Positions 7,571 to 40,602 of a stretch of DNA of 64,000 bases are shown here, one piece after another. How positions within the stretch are numbered: position 1 is the stretch's first letter; every line of letters begins with the position of its first letter. The DNA is from Hysterangium stoloniferum (lineage: Eukaryota > Basidiomycota > Agaricomycetes > Hysterangiales > Hysterangiaceae): contig WHVD01000045.1 of assembly GCA_015178975.1 (NCBI GenBank), positions 552,752 to 616,751 on the forward strand, in the 5' to 3' direction. Both the position numbers and the translations under genes were made by a program. A model generated the notes under the pieces. The model searched no databases, was not told the origin of the DNA, and saw only the letters and a program-made list of their open reading frames with translations.

Positions 7571-8709
7571 ATGTTGATTCGTCAACCATCATTCAATACT
7601 ACTCCAGAAGATTCAGATGCCGAAATTTCCGTTCTTCAAAAAATGTCGAAGGTTGCAGAACTTCAACAAAAATGGCAGAGGATGGAGGAGATGAAACGGC
7701 GACAAGAGGAGGAGGAAAAGGCTTTGATGTGGGAGTTGAAAGAGGCAGAAGAAGTGGAAAAATGGGAATTGGAGCGAGCGAAGGCGGAGAAAGAAGCATG
7801 GATACAGAAAATGGCGGAGGATCAGAAGAAGAAGAGGTGGAAAGATTACAGCGGGAGTCGGAGGCAGTGGAAAAACATAAGGAGGTAAGGGAAGGAAAGG
7901 TAAGTTCAATTCCATAAATTTCCATGGTTCCAACCGATAACTATTGGGTACAGCGAAAAGCCGTGGAGGTGGAGGAAGAGGGAGAAGCTGGGCCTTCGAG
8001 TCCTAAGGTAAGTGCATCTGCAAAAGATTGGTAATTGACTAATCTTCTGAAAAAGAAGCAAAAGGTCAAGGCTCCGGAATGGATGGAAATCGTCCACGAC
8101 ACTCCGTGTTATTGATGTTCCATACGGAATATGACTTGTTGGAAACAGAAGGTAAAATGGGGTGGAACTTGTTATCCCTGCGCAGTCCTCAAACTTCCGT
8201 GCACTCTTGCTGCGAAAAGGGTTCTGAAAGGTGAGAAGGCTCAAAAAGCTAACAATGTGGAAAGTTCAGGAGCGGCCAAAGCTGCGGAAACTGAGGTGCC
8301 GAACACAGATAGTACGGGCATTGAGCTCCTTAAGGATACTGTCGACGCATTGGTCTTTATTGGGATGGAAGTTATGAAAATGCAGGATACACTGGATCAC
8401 CATAATGATATCCAGGAAAAGGGTTTTCGTTTGTTGATCTGGAATTTCCAGAGGCAAAACAATTTCCTGGAGAAGGTAATGGTTAGCATTGGTGTTATTG
8501 CAGTTTCCGAGAGGTTTTCCGATAAGGCACGGGAACAGCCTAATGATCCGTTGGCGGAATGTGTCGAGAAAAGGTGGGAGGCGGAGTCGGGAAAGGGGCT
8601 GGAAAGTGAGGATGAAGAGGTACAGGATATGGTGGAAAGTGCGGAGATTGTGGATGATACGGGAGTAGAAGTGGAAGGAGGATTTGGAGTGTCAGAGACT
8701 TTGAAGTAG
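7571..8709 (+). pseudogene. Accessory ORF of gypsy element 1: coiled coil plus Cys clusters
   Basis: The first exon (from 7571) encodes a charged helical stretch rich in E, K and R, for example WQRMEEMKRRQEEEEKALMW, followed by candidate introns 7885 or 7900-7953 and 8008-8055 (GTAAGT donor, GACTAATC branch). A second part contains two Cys clusters, TPCY-stop-CSIRNMTC and CYPCAVLKLPC, then a helical region with MQDTLDHHNDIQEKG and an acidic tail to the stop at 8707-8709. An in-frame TGA at 8113-8115 splits the first Cys cluster; CGA (Arg) is the likely ancestral codon. It converges tail-to-tail with the pol remnant at 8795. Proteins of this build (charged helix, paired C-x2-C motifs) often accompany gypsy elements in basidiomycetes, from general knowledge; their function is unknown. 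Confidence 0.55.
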
Positions 8710-8794: not shown

Positions 8795-10241
8795 TTAGAG
8801 TGATGATAAAGGTCCAGGTTTATTCGGATAAGCTGTGTGGAAGTCAGTGACAATTTCCATAGCGTGTCCAAGTTCCATGGCCAATATCCATGAGGTTTCC
8901 TCGTCGGTACCTTCATACCCTGCCCATTTGACTAAATAGAGCAATTTACAAGTATGTCGGCGATTGTCGATTTTAGAATCCAAAATTTCAGAAACTTCAA
9001 ATTCGGGTTCTCCGTCAATGATGACCGGAGCGTAGCAAGGGTTCCCAGGCTTGTCATATAAGTTAATTTGCGTCGGTGGGTCCGACAGGGTTCTAACATG
9101 GAAATGTGGAAAATGGGGTGGACTGCTCACATACTATCGGGAAGTCGGAGAGTCCATGAGAGTGAACCGGCTTGTGCTATAATTTCGAAAGGGCCTAAGA
9201 ATTTCTCAGCAAGTTTTTTAGAAGGTCGGGTAGTACGGAAGAATTGAGCTTTACAAAAACCTGATCACCAATTTTAAAATTAGGAGGTGGGATCCTGTTT
9301 TTGTCTGCGGAACATTGATAATATTCCTGTGTGGAAGAAATAGCTTTCTGAAGTTCTTGATGTAACTCGTCGAGATCGCTAATAAGTTCTTGAGCGCGAG
9401 CGGATGCCAAATCTTGTTCGGAATGTACTGTGAGATTCAGATTATAGCCTTCGTTGGTGAAAAAGGGAGAGATGCCGGTAGTTGCGTTCGGAGAGCTATT
9501 GTAGGTGAATTCTGCGATCGGAAGAAGGGATTTCCAGTTGTCCTATTGATAATTGCAATAGATGTGGAGGTATTGTTCCAATGTTTGATTAACATGTTTC
9601 GTTTGTCCATCACCTTCCGGGTGATATCCTGAGGTGAAGTGTAGTTTCATATCAAGGGCTTTTCCGAGGGCCTGGAAGAAATGGGAGATGAACTTGGAGC
9701 CTCGATCAGAAGTTACGTGAGACGGGACTCCGTGTTTGGAAAATACGTGAATAATGAAAAGTTCCGCTAATTGTAAGGATGTGATAGTATCATGAGTGGG
9801 TATGAAAATGCCTTGTTTCGAGAATTGATCCACAACAACTAAAATGGATGTAAAGCCTTCAGACGTCGGAAGTTGTTCAATGAAATCCATGGAGATTGAA
9901 TTCCAGGGCTTTTCTGGTATCGGGAGTTGCTTGAGAAGGCCATACAGCTTATGCCTCTGGGTCTTGGAGCGTAAGCAGGTGGTGCAGGACTTACAGAACT
10001 GGGTTACGAAATCTTGGAGGTTGGGCCAAGTATATTCTCTATGGATTAAACCAAGAGTATTGTTAATGCCATAATGTCCAGAGATTGGATGATCGTGTTT
10101 GTACTGAAGTACACGGAGTCGGAGATTGTTGGAATCTGGAATGTAGATACATCCATCGAGACGGATAAAACCTTGAGAGTCTTGTGACCATCGGGGTTGG
10201 TCAGGATCGTCTCCGACCCCACTTGTATATGGCGATTTCAA
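8795..10241 (-). pseudogene. Gypsy element 1 pol remnant: integrase and chromodomain
   Basis: Reading leftwards from 10241 the ORF has the integrase zinc-binding HHCC region (HDHPISGHYG, then CKSCTTC), a DDE core (SMDFIEQLP, TSDRGSKF and the Glu in TKHVNQTLEQ), then a TAG at about 9543-9545, more integrase C-terminal sequence (9195-9410, QELISDLDELHQELQKA, KIGDQVFVKLN) and, after a frame change near 9150-9195, a chromodomain (9130-8795) with PEFEVSEILDSKI and YLVKWAGYEGTDEETSWI. This is a chromovirus-type Ty3/gypsy pol. Protease, reverse transcriptase and RNase H are missing: the element is cut at 10241, where an unrelated plus-strand gypsy begins. Confidence 0.9.
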
Positions 10242-13200
10242 AACAGGCCCTCCTAAGTGAGGACTGGACGATCGCTCAAATGGCTAGTACAGCTATTTTA
10301 ATGGAGGGCAGGACAGACCAAGAGGAGTCTATAGAGGATGACGAACCAATGAGAGAAAACAGGCACACTCCATGACAGTACCTCCTGGCCGCTTTGAAAG
10401 AGTATTTCACGCCAGAGGAGGCATTGCAGGAAGGGATTTCCCCTGAAGCTCAGTTTCGGGTACATACAGAAGAGTCTGGCTTGCGGATTTGTGATGAGTC
10501 CAATACTGACTTGCCATTGTTTATGCCCTGGTCTGTGTTCAGGGTTGACGAATCCATAGAGGATAAAATACAAGCTGTGTATGAAGAACACATACCTGGG
10601 TTCACCGAAGATATGCCAGCTTTTCGACGACACTGCCAGGAGGCAATGTGTAAGTTGTTGGAGATTCATTTTCGAGTCTATTATAAGACAGGAATCATGA
10701 CAGATAAAAATGGGGTGGAGTGACAGCGATTTATCATCTGATTCACTGCAGGATTGTATCAGATTCATAACCGGGAGTTATCAGTAATGTACTTGGTTAC
10801 GAAGGATCATCTCCAACATGATAAATGGACTGTGCCACAGATCGTGGCCAGGGGAGAAGTCACAGAGGACTTCTCAGGGACAGTTGTGTTTAACGCCACT
10901 CATATGCCTAAGAAAAAGGTGTTAGGACATAGGGAGAAGAGTCAGTTGCAAAATGATGGGGTTGAAATGGTCCAGCGTACCTCAATGCAACCAAAAGACC
11001 TTACTCGTTGCTTACTGAAACCTGTGGTCATTGAGGCATTCATCAATGAACAACTGGTGAAAGCCCTGATCGATAGTGGATCACTTGCAGACTTCATGTC
11101 GACAACGTTAGTCGATCAGCTGCAAATAGTCAAGGATCCACTAGTAAAACCACTTACTATCCAGTTGGCTGTTCACAGATCACAGTCTAAAATTAATTAT
11201 TCAGCTACTGCTGAGTTTTCATATCAGAATATAAAGTGTACTCGGTGTTTCGATGTTGCTAACCTTGATTCATACGACTTGATATTAGGGACCCCTTTCA
11301 TATTTCAACATCAAGTTATGATGGGGTTGAATCCTACAAGGGTCAACATTGGGTCAGCTCTGCCACTCCCCATGGAAGGAGATACCATTGAGACTCTCCG
11401 TTCTGCGGTAGCGGACATTTTTGACGATGAGTTAGAGAGGTTAAGGGCAGATTTACGTGCTGAAGTGGCTGACCTGGACCCAGACACTGCATCAGCAGCA
11501 CTGCCTCCATTAAGGGCTGTTAATCATACCATTCCAATAATTGATGATGTCAAAGCTTACTCATGGAGACCATCCAAATGCCCCGAAGCAATGAGAGATC
11601 TATGGCATGAAAAGAAAACCACATATATCAAGAATGGGAGGTGGAGGGTAGCCACAGGAATGAACGCATGTCCTATGCTCATTATTCCTAAACCTCCAAA
11701 GGCTGATGGCACTTTGCGAATACACACAGTAGTGGATAAGCGTGAGCAGAATGCTAACACATATAAGCTGGCAACCCCCTTGCCAGATATTGAAGCCATT
11801 CTACGAAATGTTGTGCATCATAAGTATTGGAGTTTGATAGATGGGAAGGATGCCTACGAGCAGATCTGAGTGGTTCCCGAGCATGTCCACTGGACATTGT
11901 TCACCTCTCCTGATGGCACTATGGAAAGCCTGATGTTACAAATAGGGGATTGCAATGGTCCGTCGACCTACCAGACATTGATGAACCACATATTTGCACT
12001 GTACATTGGCATCTTCATGGATGTATATTTGGATGATATTGTTGTATACTCTGACTCCATCAGTGATCATGTCAAGCATCTACGCACTGTGTTTACAGTG
12101 CTCCGTCAGGAAAAATGATATCTCACTGTCAACAAGATGCACCTGTTTGCTTCGGAGTTACCAGTTTTAGGGTATGTGATTAACAATAAAGGTATAACAA
12201 TGGACCCACATAAAGTCGATACAGTGGGCAACTGGAAGATCCCGACAAATAAGCAACTTTTGGTGGGATTTTTAGGAGCAGTGGGATATCTCGCTAACAA
12301 CTATGAGGGAGTTCAAATTCCAATGGCTATTTTATCAGCGCAGACAGGAGTAAGCAGGCAGTGGCATTGGGGTGCAACAGAGCAGCGTGCCTTTGAAGAC
12401 GTGAAGTGTATTGTTCAGGCCCATCGTGACAATTATAGAATTGCATTGGACTACTCATGAGGTCATCAAACCATTAATTTGGTGACAGACACTTGTTTAA
12501 CAGGTGCAAGTGGCATTCTCAGTCAAGGGGAAGATCTCTGCACTGCCGCAATAGTGTCATTCTGGTCGGGGAAATTCAACTCGGCACAACAGAACTACTC
12601 TGTCCACGAACAGGAGTTGTTGGCTATCGTGGAATCATTGAAACGATTCCAGTCACAACTGTTGGGGGTAAAATTTCGAATCTGTACTGACCATAAAGGG
12701 ATAGAATATATACTTATGCAGAAGAACCTGTCTTCGAGGCAGATGCGGTGGCTGGATCTGCTAAACGAATTCCACTTTGAGATTCACTATATCCCTGGAA
12801 AGTTGAATACGTTTGCAGATGCTCTATCGAGAATATATAGCGATGAGCCCTTGGGCACCATTAGGGCTGAATCCGAGTATGTAACTGACATTCCAGGGAT
12901 GGAAGAGGATACACGGGGGGTGCACTACATTTCAGGGGTTCCTGGCTTCAACAGTGTGTCGACACCACTGTATACAGGGTCTGCAGCGGTAGCATTGGAG
13001 GAAGCACCAAGATGGTCAGGAAGGTTGGCTACTCAAATGTGTCTGTCATATGCAACACTCACAGGGTTGGGCACAAAGAGGAAAGGACGTATTGAAGGAT
13101 CACGAGAGACAACCAAAAAGACACACATTGGTCATAGTAAGTCATCTGGTGTGAGGAGTATGCTTTTACCACAGTATCATTGTGGTAAAACACTCCTTTT

Positions 13201-13276
13201 ATTTCATTTATATTTTACATATTCTATTCATATTTTTCTATCTTTCATATTCTTCGAATATTGCATATTTCATTAG
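10184..13276 (+). pseudogene. Gypsy element 2: capsid-like region, protease, RT and RNase H
   Basis: A single reading frame runs from 10184 to 13276, broken only by TGA codons (10373, 10721, 10739, 11867, 12116, 12458). The N-terminal part (to about 10980) is a capsid or linker region without a recognised motif. The aspartic protease has ALIDSGSLADFM near 11062 and LILGTPFI near 11280. Reverse transcriptase follows, with LIIPKPPKADGTLRI and the catalytic YLDDIVVYSD (about 12027). RNase H has NYSVHEQELLAIVESLKRF. It ends in a sequence preceding the integrase. The likely ancestral codon at most TGAs is CGA. No 5' LTR is visible; the 5' end abuts gypsy element 1. Confidence 0.9.
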
Positions 13277-19918: not shown

Positions 19919-21270
19919 ACCCTATCAGTGTTGAAGGCACATGGTTGCCCTGACAAAGGCCTTACACCATCGATTGGACACACATTCTAATAATTTCTCT
20001 TCGATGATGCCGAAACATCTCAACCAAACCAGGATTGCAGCCGGGGTTGCAGATGTTATAAATCTATATGGTTTGAACCTATGTAAACACTATATAGTCA
20101 CTTTTCATTATCGCCGCGAGCTCCTCAGTTGTCCCCATAGATGTGTTGAATACATTTCCACCAGCCGTGATTAGACTAACCTCCGCATTTTAAAGTAAGA
20201 TATCACTGGAGGTCTGAAAAAGGTCTCTCCCACCCCCAATTCGACGCACGTCTCGTTCAGGATCATCATACCTTCAGGCCAGTGTTCAATCGACAAGATC
20301 CATGATCTTCCCACCAAGGGCCTCCACACTGTGCGAGTCAATGTGCTGGGCGAATTCCTTAAACTAATTCTCTTCCATTGAAAACTTGACAATAAAGCTG
20401 CCATAGACCGAGCAAATATAAGAGCGCATACAGTCACTTTTCGTTGCACGCGTTGATACCATACATTCATTGAATACACTCGCGGCCACCACCAGCAGGT
20501 AGACTGATATCCTATTTATCAATGACAATCATTTCAAACAGGACGCGAACTTGAGAGTTGTATGAAGCTACATAATTTGATTCAATTTAGAAGCGAAGAT
20601 CGTCACTTGTAATAGTCGCTGCGAGGTTCTCTACACTAGTATTGAATATACTCCAATGACTACTCACTGAAATCACATTGCATATACTAGCAATAACAAC
20701 GTCAATCGAATACCACTATGGCCTCTCAAAGAAGGCGGTCCCACCATTCTTCTCATGTCTTTTGTTTGGGAGAACAGGAAGCATGGGCCAAACCGATGGA
20801 CAACACCATGATCAAGACACCGACATTTCTTCACATGTCGTGAGCTCTCACCTTGTATAAGAGAAAGGTAGCTCGTGGTGATGTCAGGCGGAATCCCATA
20901 TGAACTAAGAGCTGAAGAATACCCACGACCCGCCGCGTGGAGCAGTCATTCCCCGAGATTGTCTGGTTTATGGTCTGTTTCAATGTTTCAGTGGTTAGCG
21001 TCAAACCGCACGCCACGACGATTTATTTTACTCCCTATCCCGACAGTTCTCCTGCTGCTTCCATGTCAGTTAACTGGCGTTCATTCCGCCAATTGTCATG
21101 TTTGAATCATGTCATTGCGAGTAGTAGCGAAAATTTCATTTGATTCAATCTAATATTAAAGGACTATTCGACTAGATCCGTGGGCCTCTTGAACGTTAGT
21201 TGTCGTCCCCTGTTCCTTCCTATGCGGTAGTCTCTACACCTTTCACTGGTGTGTCGACACAGAGCATTGA
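19919..21270. other. Family spacer copy 2
   Basis: This is homologous to 1216-2640 and 54020-55350. It contains the 77-codon ORF (19941-20174), the minus-strand string with CALIFARSMAALLSSFQWKR (20171-20479) and the plus-strand ORF 20937-21143 (EIVWFMVCFNVSVVSVK). Function unknown; no element ends seen. Confidence 0.45.
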
Positions 21271-21641
21271 GTTAATGAGGTAGGGAGGGATATCTCAGTG
21301 TCAATCACTGAATACACTCGAAATACTCACGTCTTCGTAGAAGAACGAAATTCCGGGGGGAGCGTCGATTATTGTATGCCTGCTCCGGTGGTCTTCACTC
21401 AATAGACAGCGGAGAGATCACATTTCAAAGCTTCTGACATCTTTGGGTTTTACCTTCATATAGTGCCCCGGTGTCGATCGGACAGATAGAAGTAATACGT
21501 CAACTGCAATGAGGTCATTATTTTATAATACTGTCACCAAACCGCCACTAAACACCAACTTTGATGTTGTGTCGACATTTATCATACAAATACCCTGCTG
21601 CTTCCATCTCAGTTGACTGGAGTTCATTCCACCAATTGTCA
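21271..21641 (+). pseudogene. Family B fragment and duplicated spacer next to the viral block
   Basis: A B-type exon junction (GAGGTAGGGAGG near 21279, intron ending TCTTCGTAG) leads into the exon that encodes the STFIIQ region, which stops at about 21593. A second, out-of-order copy of spacer sequence (CTGCTGCTTCCATCTCAGTT to CCACCAATTGTCA, 21594-21640) is joined on and abuts the AT-rich block. The normal spacer copy is intact at 21050-21180, so the flank of the block was copied from elsewhere. Confidence 0.5.
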
Positions 21642-21692
21642 CCAGTAGATATTTTCAACAAATCTCTATTTCCTATATCATTGTTTAACAAT

Positions 21693-23248
21693 ATGAAGAA
21701 AATAACATCAAATTATGATGATAAGATACCTATGTGGTTTACACATAGTATCAAAAAAGAGGATATATTATATTCCAGAATATATGGAAAAGAATTCAGA
21801 ATATCTGAAAATATTCTTGTTAAATCTGTTAGGAAAGATATATCTGAAATATTAAATAAAATGAACATAAAAATAAGAAGTAGATCCTATTCAAGATTCT
21901 TAAGTATTATTACATTACATTTATCTAAACCTTGGAAGAGACATATCTTTGCTGATATTATTATGAACAATAAACAAGTAAATTATTTAATATCATTAAG
22001 AGAAAGTTCTGAACCTTTATTCATGAGAAAGTATCTATCTTGTTCTTGTCTTCTTTCTAAGTTTACGATAATAGATGAAGTTGAAGAATTAAAAATAAGA
22101 GTTTTTTATAATAAATGTTATTTGGAGTCTTTTTTAATGAAATTAATAATATCTTCTACTTTCAAATTATATGAAAGGATAAAATTAATGAAGAATATGA
22201 AAGTATTTTTGGAAAAGTTAATTATCATAAACCAAAAGAGTATAAGGGTATAAAAGAACTAAGGAAACTTGAACCCACATTATTTGTCAATAACTATACT
22301 AGAGAATGTGCTATTTTACCTGTAGTAGATAAGATACCAAATCTGGAAAAATATAGTTATTTAAATTACCATGATATAATGTATAGAGCACCAGATGGCT
22401 ACTATATAGGATTAAAGAAGAATAGACTTCCTAATAAAAATACGTTTAAATATTTAGTTACCTGTTATAAGACAGATCATATGCTTAGAAAGAACTCTTT
22501 GATATATAAATATGTTCATGATGACGAAGAAAAAGTTAGAAATATCATAAATAAGTTCTCCTCATTCTCAGAATGCTTAGAATGGATATTGGGACCTAGT
22601 CCTAATATAATAGTTAATAAGTCTATATGTAAACAAGAATTATGGTATGAAGATGATGTAAATATCGATAATGACGTGTGTTTCAGGTATTTCGAAGAAT
22701 TATACAAATGTAATATATTGATAATTATTAAACAAAGAGGAGAATGTAAAGTATATATACCTCCATACAAGGAAGTGTATATATGGAACTTAAAGAAATA
22801 TGATAAATATATTATGATAAATAGAATATTACCTCCTAGGTACACAGATCAAAATATTTCATATGAACCTATATCAAAGAATAAATCTTTTATTCTAAGT
22901 AAAGAAAGTTGTATAGATATTATAAAAGAGAAGTTATCTATTACCTATAAAGGTTCTGTAAATAATATGAAACATCTAAAATATCAATGGATAAATGATA
23001 GAGGAAAGTGTACTATGATAGTGGACAAAGATGGTAATAAGGAAAGATGTTATCGTGAACCTTTTAAGCTTCCACTATTGAAACAATATGATGGAACATT
23101 ATTACAATACTTTAGATATCTGAATAAAATAAGAACAAAAAATAACTTGGAGAAGTTAATCTGGAGAAGTACCGATAATAAACATATCTACTTTCCAAAT
23201 ATTGAATCTGCTCGTAGATGGAAAGGATCAAAAGTAGAATCCTTGTGA
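21693..23248 (+). pseudogene. Large NCLDV-like protein, two frames, truncated
   Basis: The first ORF (186 codons from ATG 21693 to 22253) and the second (from about 22190, ATG at 22379, to 23248) are parts of one gene: the second frame is already open and coding-like before the first stops, so a small indel lies around 22170-22250. The second frame has TLFVNNYTREC, then DGYYIGL and KYLVTCYKTDH, and CFRYFEELYKCNIL. The pattern of an NYTR-x-C block followed by a Cys-Tyr-Lys block recalls a long conserved NCLDV protein family, possibly the one compared with the large early transcription factor subunit, but this is from memory of family style and unverified. Upstream of 21693 the frame stays open into the junction, so the N-terminus may be missing. 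Confidence 0.5.
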
Positions 23249-23281
23249 TAATAGAACCTATGATGGATCTAAACTTGGATA

Positions 23282-24854
23282 CTACAATACCCGGAGATCC
23301 TCTGGGTATTGTGAAGATACAGGGCATTCCATTGCTTGTTTTATCATAGATGATGCAAAAATAGTCCTTGCACCTTGGTTATGATTAGAATATGGAATAG
23401 AAGATGCTGAGATACCAAAAATAACAGAAGGGTGTATCTCCATATGAGTGTAATTTTCTGGATTTCCCTTATATGACATATCAGTTATACTAGAGTATTC
23501 AGCCTCTAAAGGATCTAGGTACTCTACAAAGCCAATCTTTAACAAGTCTTCCCACGAAGTATCAGTAATAACATCCCAATCTATTACTTTTCTGTTTGTC
23601 TTTATTAGAGGTCTCATTAGTCTGTTTCTCCATGTTCTTATGTATATAATACTATCCCTTTCTACATGTACTGATACATATGGATTATTCTTCTTATGTC
23701 AACAATCTTTTCATACATAAGTATCATCTCTGGTAGTACCTATTACCATTCCATTATACACTACCCAAGGTCTAGAGGTATTTTGAGATATTAATCTAAT
23801 AATATCTTCATATATGTCCTCTATTCCAGGACTTATAACACATGTAGACGCTAGATTCTTAATTAGTCCTACTTGTTTCCCTTCTGGTGTTTCACTAGGG
23901 CAAATGTATCCCTTCTGAGTCTTGTGTATCTGTCTCATTGGAAAACTGGTAGAATTATCATCAGCAGGAACTACTATTCTTCTAGTACTAGAAATATAAT
24001 CTATTTCTGATTTATTACCTACCTGTACTACCATCTTCGACTTGATCATATTACTAATTCTTAAAGAACACGTTCTCATAACAGAATATAATTCATTGTC
24101 TATTCTTTTTCTAATTTTCCCAGTTTTCTTATTAAATGCTCTATCTATTAGAGTAGATAAGATGTTACCAGAAGTCTGAAATATCTTATGACCATAGTGA
24201 TCCCTGTCTGTTTCTAGAGTTTTATCAAATTTCACAGCAATACATTTATCTAGGGCAAGCATTATTGTTCTACAAACTTCCCTCTTTTTTACCTTTCCAC
24301 GTATATTATCTATAAAATATTTATAAGCTCCAGCACTTAGGGGTTTATCCTCATCCCCTATAATAGAGAATATTCTACTATTGTCAGGTTCTATCTTCCA
24401 TTTTTTGAATAAACTTGATATATATAGTTTTTCGTTGGGATTGTTTTCTGTTATTATTCTAATATATATATTTTTAGAATATACTAACTTCATGGAATTT
24501 CTAGACTCTGGAAATCTAGTTTCACAAGTAATATCATCATTCTCGATAGTTACAAATAAACTATTTCTTGACTTTCCTTCTTGTATCAAAGGAACCTTTT
24601 CTACACCATCTATTATAAAGTAAGTAGCCTTTAGAGTTCATCATAGGAATTTCAAATCTCTCTTCTCCTATTACAGTCATATTAAAACTTTCTCTACCTC
24701 TAATATGCCTTATATCATCTTCTTCTTGGAATTCTATACTATATTTCTCTAATAACTTATCATTTACTAGTTCTTTGAAAATTATATCTTGATTTGCTAA
24801 TAACTTATGAAACTCAAAGTACTTACTTAGAAGTGAACTACGATGATCATCCAT
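23282..24854 (-). pseudogene. Viral-type RNA polymerase second largest subunit (RPB2), 5' half
   Basis: Three minus-strand pieces lie in order: 24854-24561, 24589-23711 and 23617-23282. They are separated by frame changes near 24610 and near 23700. Visible RPB2 hallmarks are DRDHYGHKIFQTSG (piece 2, residues 128-141; fork/lobe region), ICPSETPEGKQVGLIKNLA (residues 229-247), EYLDPLEAEYSSI and EIHPSVIFGISASSIP (piece 3), and NHNQGARTIFASSM. The order matches protrusion, lobe, fork and external domains. Homology stops after the KQAM motif near 23330, so the hybrid-binding domain with catalytic residues and the C-terminal clamp are absent. Only about 520 codons of a protein normally around 1100-1200 remain. 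It shares a divergent 44-bp gap with the ORF at 24899. Confidence 0.9.
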
Positions 24855-24898
24855 AAAATGAATAAATACATTTAAAAGGTATTCATTTTTAACTTACA
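24855..24898. promoter_or_regulatory. Divergent AT-rich intergenic gap with palindrome
   Basis: The 44 bp between the RPB2 start (minus strand) and the next ORF (plus strand) are nearly all A/T. They hold a perfect 10-bp inverted repeat, AAAATGAATA (24855-24864) and TATTCATTTT (24880-24889). Promoters for both genes must lie here if they were once expressed; the palindrome may be a shared control site or RNA hairpin. Confidence 0.4.
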
Positions 24899-25195
24899 AT
24901 GAGTAACAAACCATTATATGTCTCATCCGATCTTTTTAATATTAAGAAAGTATCATTGGAAGAAGTCCAAGATGGAGATATAAAGAGGACAAAGGTAAAG
25001 TATAGATACTCTGATGGGGAGATTAGAGATTTATGTCTAACCACACCACCAGATAGTTTTATTCTATGCCTAGGCATTAAAGATGATATGTTTGGAAAGG
25101 GAGATAATAGAAAACCTACAGGGAAACATGCCTGTTCTCTAGTACTAGGAGATGATAGCAACGAAAATGGCTACCAATGTTGTTTCCTTGCATGA
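24899..25195 (+). pseudogene. Unassigned viral ORF, possibly truncated DNA-binding protein
   Basis: 98 codons from MSNKPLYVSSD. The middle has LCLTTPPDSFILCLGIKDD followed by a short basic stretch and KHACSLVLGDDSNENG. A TTP segment with a following GI and a beta-strand SLVL recalls small NCLDV proteins thought to bind single-stranded DNA, but the resemblance is weak. The last 15 codons run into the start of the TFIIS-like ORF in another frame, so the natural C-terminus seems to have been lost by a deletion that joined the two genes near 25150-25180. Confidence 0.4.
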
Positions 25196-25334
25196 AGAAA
25201 GGATATCAACAATATATACTTGTCCTAAGTGTAATAGTAACAGAGTATTCTCAGAACAGCAAATAAGGGCTGCAGATGAAGGTGCAACAACCATGTATGT
25301 CTGTAATAATTGTGATCATAGATGGAACGATTGA
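25152..25334 (+). pseudogene. TFIIS-type zinc ribbon (transcript cleavage factor C-terminus)
   Basis: 60 codons; the functional start might be the ATG at 25152 or 25170, but the N-terminal part of a usual viral TFIIS (about 150-200 residues) is missing. The zinc ribbon is complete: CPKCNSNRVF, the acidic loop with RAADE, and CNNCDHRW just before the end. The Asp-Glu pair in the loop is the catalytic pair of TFIIS, which stimulates RNA cleavage by backtracked polymerase. Its presence beside RPB2 suits an NCLDV transcription set. The N-terminus is probably replaced by the deletion junction with the ORF at 24899. Confidence 0.85.
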
Positions 25335-25359
25335 ATACTTATTTTTAAAAGTATTCAAT
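25330..25359 (+). terminator. Palindrome over the TFIIS-like stop codon
   Basis: ATTGAATACTT (25330-25340) and AAGTATTCAAT (25349-25359) form a perfect 11-bp stem with an 8-nt AT loop overlapping the TGA stop. Some giant viruses end transcripts at such hairpins (known for mimivirus), so this may be a former 3'-end signal. It shares the GAATA/TATTC core with the palindrome at 24855-24889. Confidence 0.45.
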
Positions 25360-25410
25360 GATCATATTGTATTAAAATGATTAATAAAATATATTATATA
25401 TTCATTATAG

Positions 25411-25725
25411 ATGATGTTTGATATAGGAGTAACATTCGAAAATTATGAAAATAAAGACTGCCCCATCCTACCATCTACATCATATCAATCAGATGATTTT
25501 ATTAACATCATAAAAGAATTTCTCTATATTACAGGGCACAGTACCAATACAAGATCTATTAGACATAAATATGTTTCTAGTTCAACAACATATTATGAAG
25601 ATAATATTTGTTTGATAGGAAATAATGGAGAAGTTCTTTTGGTTTTGAAAATATATAAGTCCCCTCCAATGATTTGTATTATGCCATTGTCAGTAGTAGA
25701 GAAAAATTTGTTTGATCCAATCTAA
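25411..25725 (+). pseudogene. Unassigned AT-rich ORF at the right end of the viral block
   Basis: 104 codons starting MMFDIGVTFENYENKD, with SDDFINIIKEFLYITGH and ICLIGNNGEVLLVLKIYKS. The composition is that of the viral block. The last ten or so codons (from VVEKNLFD) are family spacer DNA, so the gene is truncated by the junction near 25697. No family recognised. Confidence 0.4.
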
Positions 25726-25786
25726 TATTAAAGGACTATTCGACTAGATCCGTGGGCCTCTCGAATGTTTGTTGTCGTCCCCTGTT

Positions 25787-25906
25787 CCTTCCTATGCATT
25801 AGTGTCTACACCTTCCTATGCATTAATGTCTACACCTTCCTATGCATTAGTGTCTACACCTTCCTATGCATTAGTGTCTACACCTTCCTATGCATTAGTG
25901 TCTACA
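25787..25906 (+). repeat. 24-bp minisatellite, five units
   Basis: CCTTCCTATGCATTAGTGTC plus TACA is repeated five times head-to-tail (25787, 25811, 25835, 25859, 25883) with one base difference in the second unit (TTAATG). Other family copies of this spot (near 21216, 55337, 61824) have one unit only, so the expansion is local to the flank of the viral block. Because the unit is a multiple of three, several frames stay open across it. Confidence 0.9.
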
Positions 25907-26061
25907 CCTTTCACTGGTGTGTCGACACCATTGATGAATTTGAATTACGTCTTCATTTTCCAGAAAAAACCCCCTGGAACATAATTACGTGGCTTCCAGA
26001 CCGTTTCATCAAAACAATGCTAGTGAGTTCATCGCCATAAAGGTGCTCGCCAAGGAGACAC
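25907..26061 (+). pseudogene. Module X fragment cut by the Helitron
   Basis: The usual lead-in to X (CACTGGTGTGTCGACACCAT) and the start of the VAIK segment (ATCGCCATAAAGGTGCTCGC, 26031-26050) are present, then the sequence leaves the family at 26062. Only the first third of module X remains. Confidence 0.55.
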
Positions 26062-27242
26062 TATTATTGGTGCATGTATTTCACGGTCTCACCTTTGGCA
26101 CAATGTGAAGATTCTGTTTTTGACTGAGAATATGTGTGTAGATCCTACTGATCAAGAGAGTGCTGTTTTTGCTCAGTGGCTTTTGGATATTGGACATGGA
26201 AAGGACATGCCTCTCGATCATATGTTTAAAGTCCCTGAACACATGCTATGTGGACCAACAGTGGATGATTTAGTCTCAACTATTTATCCAAACATACATG
26301 ATCCTAAGGCTCTTACTGATGAGTTTTTCTTGGAGTGGGCTATTCTCTGTCCTCGAAATTCAGATGTAGATCAAGTCAATGACATGCTCTTTGAAATATT
26401 TCCAGGGATTGGGCAAACCTACCACAGTGCAGACAGTGTCAAAAATGGAGCCAATGAGACATTATATCCTCCTGAGTACCTAAACTCAATCAACTTTGGA
26501 GGATTGTCACCAAGTAAATTGCATTTGAAACCTGGAGTGCCATTGATGCTGCTTCAAAACTTGGATCCAGAACAAGGACTCTGTAATGTAACAAGACTGT
26601 GGTTAATACAAATGACTCACACAGTACTTCAAGTAAAGATCATTACAGGACCTTCAGCAGGAGAGCTGGCATTCATCCCTCAAATAACAATACAAAACAA
26701 ATGCCATTTGAACTGCATCATCAGCAGTTTCTAGTCAGGCTAGCATTTTCTATGACTATCAATAAATCACAAGGTCAATATTGAAAATTAGTTGGATTGG
26801 ATCTGCATAGTCCTATGTTCTCACATGGACAGTTTTATGTTGGTGTTTCAGGAGGGACAAATTGGGGAAGAGTAAAGATTTTACTCCATGATACTGATAT
26901 GACTGCAAATGTAGTGTTTAAGGATGTTATTATTGATCCATGAGTAAGTATTCAACAAGGTTGCAAAAGGAGACTGACTTATATTTTTTAGGTTCAGTGA
27001 ATTTACCAAAGTATGTATAGTATATATAATTCTGAATAATGTAAAATTTAATCACTTTAACATAAAATTCTGAATGAATAAATGGGAAGCTGGAATGCAC
27101 AGAAGTGGTCACAGAAGGTAATACAAACTGTTGATGTAGTGTTTAAAGACATTATTATTGATCCACCAGGTTGCGAAGCGACCGAGTAAAGTTGTGGGGT
27201 GGTAGCATGGTGGGGGCTTGCCCCCCACGGGTCACAGCCTTG
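26062..27242 (+). mobile_element. Helitron 3' part with helicase fragment and terminal hairpin
   Basis: The left end joins mid-helicase DNA straight to module X, so the 5' portion is lost. The protein fragment (26064-26940) is the C-terminal half of a Pif1-like Helitron helicase: RSHLWHNVKILFLTENM, SVFAQWLLDIGHGK-like sequence, PLMLLQNLDPEQGLCN, MTINKSQGQ and SHGQFYVGVSGG. The frame changes near 26690. Near the right end GTGGGGG (27210-27216) and CCCCCAC (27222-27228) form the terminal hairpin typical of Helitrons, about 14 bp before the host T at 27243. The final bases are CTTG, not a standard CTRR. Host sequence resumes as TTGGTTAGATAGCC. Confidence 0.8.
26105..26734 (+). pseudogene. Helitron Pif1-like helicase, C-terminal fragment
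   Basis: 209 codons of open frame within the Helitron remnant, from MKILFLTENMCVD to the frame change near 26690. The segment NFGGLSPSKLHLKPGVPLML is the usual transition before the ARNQ-type motif region, and the next frame (26599-26784) supplies LAFSMTINKSQGQ, helicase motif VI region. Walker A and B motifs are not present, so no activity is possible. Confidence 0.8.
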
Positions 27243-38602: not shown

Positions 38603-40602
38603 TCATGCGTGAGCATGTATTCCGGCATTTGATGTATGATATGTGTGCTTGGGACGTGTGAGGGCCTTGGTGAGTATATTGGCTACCATTTTGTTGGTTG
38701 GGCAGTAAACCAGCTTGATCTTCCCCTGTGTTACGGTGTCGTGGATGAAATGGAAGCGAATGTCGATATGTTTCGAATGGGCGTGGTAAACACCATCGTG
38801 TGAAAGTGAGATAGCACTTTGGTTGTCACAATAGAGTGTTGTGGGCATTTTGAGTGGGCGGGCAAGTTTGCCAATGATAGAATGAAGCCAAATGAGTTCC
38901 TTTGCGGCATGCGTTGATGCTATAAACTTAGATTTGGTCGATGACAATGTGACCACAGATTGCTGTTTCGAACTCCAGGACATTGCACCACCATCTATGA
39001 GGTACATATAGCCTGAAGTGGAGTGCTGGTGGTCCTGTGATGCCCAATCGGCATCAGTATAACCCACGAGGCCATCAGTGCGTAATCCCTATATAATCCT
39101 GATGTTTTGTATTCCTTTTAGGTATCTCAGGACTTGCTTTCCTGCTTCCCAGTGGGTGCGTCCGGGGTTGTCCATGAATCGCGATAATATTCCTACAGAA
39201 AATGATATACCGGGGCATGTCATTCTTGCTATGTATAGGAGAGACCCAACTAATTGTTTGTACGGTACGTCCTTCATATCATCTCGTCCTCCATTGGTAC
39301 TAGGTGACTGATTGCTTGTGAATTGAGTTCCAGGCTCGAGTGATGTGGAGACAGGGTGTGCATTGTTGAGGTTGAAGCGGTCCAACATTTTTTGGATATA
39401 GGCGTTTTGGGATAATGATAGGGTGTGTACATTCTCATTTCACTCTACCTTTACCCCCAGTAACCAGTGCATTGGACCTAGATCAACAAGTTCAAAGCAG
39501 GCTCCCAGTTGTTGTTTGAGATTCATCATGGCATTTTTGGAGCTCATCACTAATGTCAGGTCATCTACATGTGTTGCTACAATGCAAATTTCACCGTTTT
39601 CATTTTTGAAGAATACGGCATAATCATAAGCTGATCTTGTGAATCCAAGTCTTGTGAATAGAGCGTGTAGTGTAGCTCATTGTACCACTCCCGCCCTGCC
39701 TGTTTCAGTCCATAAATTGCCTTGAGTAATAGGCATGCTAGATCCTCTTCACCGGGTTTTACGAATCTCGGTGGTTGTTTCATGAAGATTATTTCTTCTA
39801 GCTTTGCATTGAGATAGGTGTTCTTGTAATCAGCTTGGTGTATGGTCGATCCATTGCGGTTTGCGAGTGCGAGAATGAGGCGTATTGACCCCAGGTTGGC
39901 TGTTGGTGCAAATGTTTCATTGAAATCGACACCAGGGACTTGAGAGAATCCTTGTGCTACAAGTCGGGCCTTTACCTTGATAGGGTTATTCTCTGCATCA
40001 TGTTTCATCACGTAAGTCCATCGACTGCCTACTATGTTTGCATTCGGAGGTGGTAATGTCCACGTTCTGTTGGCCCGCATTCTTTCTAGCTCCTCTAACA
40101 TGGCTGGGATCCAGATGTCCTTTTGAGGGCTGTATGCTGCTTCCTCGAAATTCATTGGATCGTTTGGCAATGATGCCAGCATGGCATATTCAACATTGTT
40201 ATCAGTGTCTGCAGTGAGCCTTTCTTTTGCGATCATACCTGTCTCTTTGTATGCATTCACTTCCTTTGGTGTTTGGAGGCCCACAGGGAATGTTGGACTA
40301 TTATTCAGTCCTGTGTGGGATCCTTCGCCCTCATGAATCTGTTGTACATTGGCTGAGGGTTTCGTGATTCGGTGGCCTCGACCGAGTGGAGGGGCTGATG
40401 CTGGTTCTGGTTCGAAGTTGTGGAGTGGGTCTGTTGTGACTGTCTTTGGTTTGGGATTTGTGCCAGGTGCGTCATTGCTGGTTCTAGATGTGTCACTGGC
40501 TGATTTGTTGTCTGTAGGGGGTCTTGCGATACTGTCCTGGTCTTTGGTCATAGTCTCCCCCTCAGACTGAACAGTGTCCCTAGTCTCGGGTGGAAAATGC
40601 AA
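38603..40602 (-). pseudogene. Copia element RT and RNase H
   Basis: Minus strand. 40602-39577 holds a linker and the reverse transcriptase start (EAAYSPQKDIWIPAMLEELE, WTYVMKHDAENNPIKVKARL, VPGVDFNETFAPTANLGSIR). After a frame change near 39640 the catalytic THVDDLTLVMSS follows. 39388-39089 has DRFNLNNAHPVSTSLEPGTQ and LLYIARMTCPGISFSVGIL. RNase H is 39067-38603: GYTDADWASQ, TKSKFIASTHAAKELIWL, LYCDNQSAISLS and SKHIDIRFHFIHD. In-frame stops separate these pieces, including TGA after LLGVKVE, where CGA or similar is likely ancestral. Copia order (integrase before RT) is clear. Confidence 0.9.

Follow-up and report, generated by a model that had tools for sequence, protein, structure and literature searches.

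An AT-rich block in the window studied here (the whole 64,000-nucleotide stretch G000:C388:552752-616751, from a fungal genome of 111 Mb in 554 contigs) is, with a probability of about 0.8, an endogenous remnant of a giant-virus-like virus that most likely belonged to the Nucleocytoviricota (nucleocytoplasmic large DNA viruses, NCLDVs) and whose DNA fragments were end-joined into chromosomal breaks of a fungus, probably a basidiomycete, and have since decayed. The pieces concerned are of viral type, occur at several loci, are differently joined and are broken, and in the window and on contig C70 they stand at single points of repeats that otherwise lack them. Two traits of the Nucleocytoviricota are present: multisubunit RNA polymerase genes of their own together with TFIIS (RPB2 and TFIIS in the window, RPB1 scraps on contigs C70 and C63), and a family B DNA polymerase (PolB) of the PF00136 type (contigs C63, C533 and C10). 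That the host is a fungus follows from its own Pol II RPB2 exon, which scores 505, 497 and 494 bits against chains taken from their entry codes to be of yeast and at most 430 bits against animal chains; DUF6534, a basidiomycete family, gave 21 matches in the genome, every one of them passing the cut-off.

Viral-type genes in an AT-rich insert

The GC content of the block is 0.287 versus 0.442 in the remaining window, where the lowest value among 260 other stretches of 4031 bp (overlapping, at steps of 200 bases) was 0.400; the AT richness reported in an earlier account made from the letters of this DNA (hereafter, the sequence-only reading) is therefore real. Pfam matches to Rpb2_3, Rpb2_5, the TFIIS zinc ribbon and DUF5757 were obtained in the block (Table 1), and all four motifs named in that reading occur in translations: the minus strand encodes ICPSETPEG and EIHPSVIFGISASS, the plus strand NYTREC and FEELYKCNIL. 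The RPB2, TFIIS and large protein that it described hold up as family matches, but none of them was found complete: RPB2 is divided among separate open pieces and ends just after domain 6 begins, the DUF5757 protein runs across two frames, TFIIS amounts to 55 residues, and no complete gene was found in the block.

Junctions were placed in the assembled sequence with the help of contig C163, where a paralogous repeat runs through without the block and could be aligned to the flanks. The left edge given earlier for the block (21642..25697) is exact, but the right flank starts at about 25671-25672. Comparison of the window with C163 showed that 0-1 bp of the host repeat was lost at the insertion point and that a target-site duplication is absent; a second uninterrupted copy of the repeat lies within the window itself (21030-21260). 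Viral-type genes and empty sites thus support the earlier proposal that a fungal repeat here holds integrated DNA of giant-virus type, with the amendment that the viral DNA is a patchwork of joined pieces and not one collinear fragment. One internal join probably separates the DUF5757 and RPB2 pieces (Table 1), as the similarity of the 23617-23285 piece to IMG/VR RPB2s ends at residue 96.

Related pieces elsewhere in the genome

Searching the genome with the block returned eight DNA matches: the block itself, one host flank (C163) and six matches on C10, C63 (two), C533, C508 and C178. The C163 match begins only at window position 25672 and was discounted as a viral scrap because it is the flank of the host repeat. 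A second AT-rich block of 6,071 bp was found on C63 (L023:3231-9301), and its 23 matches (itself, seven internal C63 repeats, five that were set aside and ten others) added four places, namely C533 near 737 kb, C70, C20 and C61. Scraps were thereby located in the window and at nine other places, on nine contigs; these counts are lower bounds, as only the best candidates were scored. Four of the nine other places (C20, C61, C508 and C178) are known from matches of 46-60 bp and one, C533 near 530 kb, from an 82-bp match, which makes these five less secure than the places on C10, C63, C533 (near 737 kb) and C70.

The five C63 matches set aside, on C507 (two), C168, C1 and C536, fall within a part of the block with coding sequence related to a host gene; the protein match to this gene was shown for C1 and C168, and for C507 and C536, where it was not found, it is presumed. 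The part in question (L023:6607-7311) is an AT-rich open frame (30% GC) in which a portion of one gene occurs twice. Its C1 relative in the host has a GC content of 49%, with 47-54% identity between the proteins; possibly the viral genome included a relative of a gene of its fungal host. AT-rich hairpins also occur in the C63 block (L023:4424-4468 and 8553-8593, arms 91% and 100% paired). On C178, an AT-rich stretch with open frames (L029:2130-4230), possibly further viral DNA, lies in the same 10-kb region as a 52-bp match to the window block. On C508, a segment of about 315 bp (L027:4695-5010) holds three short matches (32, 42 and 53 bp), each to another part of the C63 and window blocks and the 42-bp one within the host-like gene; it is perhaps a mosaic of tiny scraps.

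The loci are joined in different ways. C10 shares window positions 21642-21919, where its open frame continues further upstream than the window piece, and is joined at its other end to PolB; C63 shares window positions 24874-25036 and then departs; C63 and C10 have two further pieces in common. The loci thus draw on the same viral genes but are broken at different places. On C70, a Ty3/gypsy copy contains about 78 extra bases that include an RPB1 scrap, without a target-site duplication. Among the best 40 of 1260 candidates, which were scored, 38 of the 39 other gypsy copies listed are contiguous across this point to within a few bases (two of them within 16); of the remaining copy, only the left half is seen.

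The sequence-only reading had proposed to look for more viral genes in the rest of the genome, such as DNA polymerase, and pieces of one virus-type PolB were detected on C63 (PF00136, E 1.2e-25), C10 (PF00136, E 8.8e-6) and C533, the last in a 332-residue open frame that begins with sequence unlike PolB; the best solved matches of this C533 piece are polymerase zeta and archaeal PolB. Protein-primed DNA polymerase (PF03175) was absent from the families matched by the scrap pieces at E up to 0.1. The RPB1 scrap on C70 (E 4e-4, passing the cut-off) reads NADFDGDEMN, which we take to be the RPB1 catalytic motif; that on C63 (E 0.0059) failed the cut-off. A further C63 piece, without a Pfam match at E up to 0.1, weakly matched a chain of VETFS (a D6-type helicase), presumably the vaccinia protein (E 0.023, the better of two PDB matches at E up to 10).

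Affinities of RPB2, PolB and the DUF5757 protein

The view that the window RPB2 is unlike that of the host was borne out. In a tree of 11 rows, in which the stem is long (1.5, with a long-branch warning) and three of the eight inner branches are open, it forms a clade with P0003 and P0004 (support 100/100), apart from the second-largest subunits of host Pol II (RPB2) and Pol III (RPC2) and from six IMG/VR RPB2s; the tree speaks against a host origin without placing the virus. Identity to the host RPB2 is about 34% over 104 residues, versus 45-50% to the two relatives: P0003 (ENA, 373 residues, on a 17,391-base contig) matches at 45% over the whole 292-residue RPB2 piece and P0004 (ENA, 235 residues, on a 3,116-base contig) at 50% over 73% of it. 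These were the only two matches among 497 candidates, and both have the same odd fork region; a change within ICPSETPEG in P0004 looks like decay. For PolB, P0001 (JGI, on a 2,043-base contig; 73% over 91% of the piece) and the distant P0002 (24%) were the only two matches among 438 candidates. Candidates in these searches were limited by length, with full-length viral RPB2 and PolB outside their scope. IMG/VR relatives of the 292-residue piece have 26-36% identity, relatives of the short domain-5 piece reach 46% over 69 residues (L016), and identities in phage and bacterial plasmid collections are below 30%. The predicted structure of the RPB2 piece (mean predicted local distance difference test score 41.6) was too poor for a fold search. 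The window piece was the single match to DUF5757 (PF19061) in the genome at E up to 0.001, and no relative of the protein was found among 1203 candidates, in the PDB (E up to 10) or in IMG/VR.

Divergence between the pieces

Differences at codon positions 1, 2 and 3 were 29, 17 and 48 in six comparisons comprising 1,468 aligned bases (p 0.0004 against equal shares), although these comparisons are few, partly overlapping and not independent. Between the PolB pieces of C533 and C10, 42 of 459 aligned bases differ, distributed 17/4/21. The skew to the third position suggests that much of the change arose in working genes; much of the divergence between scraps would therefore probably predate integration, and at least two virus strains probably contributed. 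A frame break in C10 and stops in the window are signs of decay, some of which appears to have followed integration.

Features of the window

Coordinates are collected in Table 1. The first piece of the block has no Pfam match of its own and is probably part of the same viral gene as the DUF5757 piece. The domain-5 piece of RPB2 also gave a match to PF00562 that was below the cut-off (E 0.028), and no Pfam match was obtained for the probable N-terminal RPB2 piece or for either small open reading frame (ORF). Identity of the first of these ORFs to the C63 block includes 25 bp upstream of its ATG. An 11-bp hairpin spans the TFIIS stop (window 25330-25360; z -1.99, with 9 of 200 shuffles folding equally well) and resembles the hairpin ends of some giant-virus transcripts. 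In the host repeat to the right of the insert there is a 24-bp tandem repeat array (25787-25934), represented by a single unit in the C163 copy, and further on a PIF1-type helicase piece (26105-26734; PF21530, E 3.7e-16), probably of helitron origin. Pieces of long terminal repeat retrotransposons with integrase, protease and RNase H domains and a Ty1/copia-type RVT_2 lie at 9546-13273 and 39580-40602.

Table 1. Features of the insert and its flanks (window coordinates).
Feature	Position	Strand	Evidence
Left flank (host repeat), ending at the junction	21594..21641	+	C163 repeat alignment ends at 21641
Whole viral-derived insert, AT-rich patchwork	21642..25671	.	GC contrast; junctions from C163 alignment
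Piece preceding the DUF5757 part, different frame	21642..22253	+	24 differences in 279 aligned bases to C10 piece
DUF5757 protein, main open piece, 348 residues	22202..23248	+	DUF5757 (PF19061), E 1.9e-14
Probable internal join, DUF5757 piece to RPB2 piece	23249..23329	.	Inferred
RPB2 piece with domain 5, truncated early in domain 6	23285..23617	-	Rpb2_5 (PF04567), E 2.6e-6
RPB2 piece, fork region with ICPSETPEG, 292 residues open	23714..24589	-	Rpb2_3 (PF04565), E 1.6e-16
Probable RPB2 N-terminal piece, other frame	24564..24854	-	Adjacent, upstream, same strand; inferred
Small viral ORF	24899..25195	+	First part 97% identical to C63 block
TFIIS C-terminal zinc ribbon, 55 residues and stop	25167..25334	+	TFIIS zinc ribbon (PF01096), E 1.1e-15
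Small ORF cut by the right junction; open frame continues in host DNA to 25725	25411..25671	+	Reading frame, junction alignment
Host repeat, right flank from the junction	25672..25814	+	Resumes C163 repeat; 89% to copy at 21101-21242

Discussion

The patchwork would be explained if viral DNA was fragmented during infection and end joining then ligated the fragments to one another and into broken chromosomes, with tiny scraps serving as filler DNA; the inserted pieces would have decayed afterwards and now be fossils without present function. The source material appears to have been DNA and not mRNA, because the piece shared with C63 spans sequence upstream of an ATG and because divergent genes adjoin; mRNA-based insertion was judged less likely on the same grounds.

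The main rival, to which we assign a small share of the probability, is a single insertion of one large giant-virus genome that was later broken up and scattered by transposons and rearrangement. The genome offers many host repeats, the window and C63 blocks lie in the same repeat family, a probable helitron piece stands just downstream of the insert, and the fungal precedent described in PMC10640383 is one long insertion. The codon-position pattern disfavours such scattering, the distribution of PolB differences between C533 and C10 being unlike the even spread expected from decay after one insertion, and neither the window insert nor that on C70 has a target-site duplication. Helitron ends follow the TC...CTRR rule, from which the ends of the window insert differ, and helitron capture was likewise judged less likely.

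As to the donor, an NCLDV is preferred over a member of the Mirusviricota because of DUF5757 and the weak VETFS-like match, the distribution of which points to NCLDVs. A mirusvirus donor would account for most of the genes seen here, RNApolA, RNApolB, DNApolB and TFIIS being common to mirusviruses and NCLDVs according to PMC10132985, and we consider it improbable to about the same degree as the single insertion. Linear fungal plasmids of the killer type are a far more doubtful source. They are AT-rich and carry an RNA polymerase and a poxvirus-like helicase, with which the AT richness, the RNA polymerase pieces and the VETFS-like match are compatible, but their defining feature is a PolB of the protein-primed kind, whereas the PolB found here is of the PF00136 type and closest to polymerase zeta and archaeal PolB among solved structures; moreover, TFIIS and DUF5757 are, to our knowledge, not plasmid genes. 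Chimeric assembly, or contaminating DNA from an amoeba or another virus, could produce a sharp change in composition at junctions that were judged from the assembly, but is hardly credible: the junctions fall at one point of a repeat that is intact elsewhere, the scraps are spread over ten places and nine contigs (one of them 1.6 Mb), an insert of about 78 bp lies inside a retrotransposon copy, and frames are broken.

Several observations weigh against endogenous giant-virus DNA joined piecemeal into the chromosomes. The insertion of the C63 block is not clean, about 850 bp of the repeat being replaced relative to C163. The codon-position comparisons have the dependence stated above, and that of the window with C533 near 530 kb (2/3/4) shows no skew. 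In a PDB search, a profile of the window RPB2, P0003 and P0004 placed RPB2 of archaea and of Pol II first and a viral homolog of RPB2 lower (E about 1e-6); judging by its entry code, we take the latter to be that of African swine fever virus. The IMG/VR scans made found no close relative, the best match to the 292-residue RPB2 piece having 31% identity over 170 residues. The capsid gene sought alongside PolB, which in the Nucleocytoviricota encodes a major capsid protein of double-jelly-roll type, was not found in the genome with PF04451 (E up to 0.001) or PF16903 (E up to 1), searches that gave no positive in 14 control genomes either, and the late transcription factor VLTF3 (PF04947, E up to 1) was not found in a search that likewise lacked a positive control.

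The scraps suggest that such viruses at one time reached a group of fungi from which few signs of them are known. A wider picture is tentative, and we hold it somewhat less probable than its opposite: a giant-virus lineage would infect, or have infected, mushroom-forming fungi, with close relatives persisting in the environment (P0001); cells would cut incoming genomes, pieces of which fill chromosomal breaks; and the genome would be a shredded record of repeated infections. The scraps supply PolB, RPB1 and RPB2 sequences with which a living virus can be sought, and constitute a natural record of the cutting and joining of foreign DNA in fungal chromosomes.

PolB-based NCLDV fossils have reportedly been described in several fungal phyla by Gong et al. 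in 2020, which lowers the novelty of the present finding. Giant-virus fossils in basidiomycetes did not come up among the papers listed in searches of the open-access literature, which covers neither bioRxiv nor most subscription papers, and the term "basidiomyc" is absent from the main text of PMC9894930, PMC11265010 and PMC12707981. According to PMC10640383, from 2023, fungi were not then known to be infected by any double-stranded DNA virus. Among sequences in databases, the nearest found to the scraps are P0003 and P0004 (RPB2, 45-50% identity) and P0001 (PolB, 73%).

NCLDV-like genes are reported in PMC5294986 from Gonapodya, Allomyces and Rhizophagus, three positives in a survey that included 392 genomes of fungi. 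As in our genome, viral core genes reside in fungal genomes there, in Gonapodya and Allomyces as small islands amid eukaryotic genes; unlike the probable basidiomycete studied here, all three belong to early-diverging phyla (Chytridiomycota, Glomeromycota and Blastocladiomycota). Rhizophagus irregularis carries an Asfarviridae-related endogenous region of 1.5 Mb, one continuous insertion in an arbuscular mycorrhizal fungus (PMC10640383). It resembles the DNA described here in having giant-virus genes that include RNA polymerase and PolB, and in that no major capsid gene was found in either, in our case by searches without a positive control, and it differs in its continuity, as our material consists of blocks of 4-6 kb and smaller scraps, and in its GC content, which is above that of the host, whereas that of our blocks is below it. 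Giant-virus fossils in fungi are thus already known; their patchwork form and the probable basidiomycete host are new.

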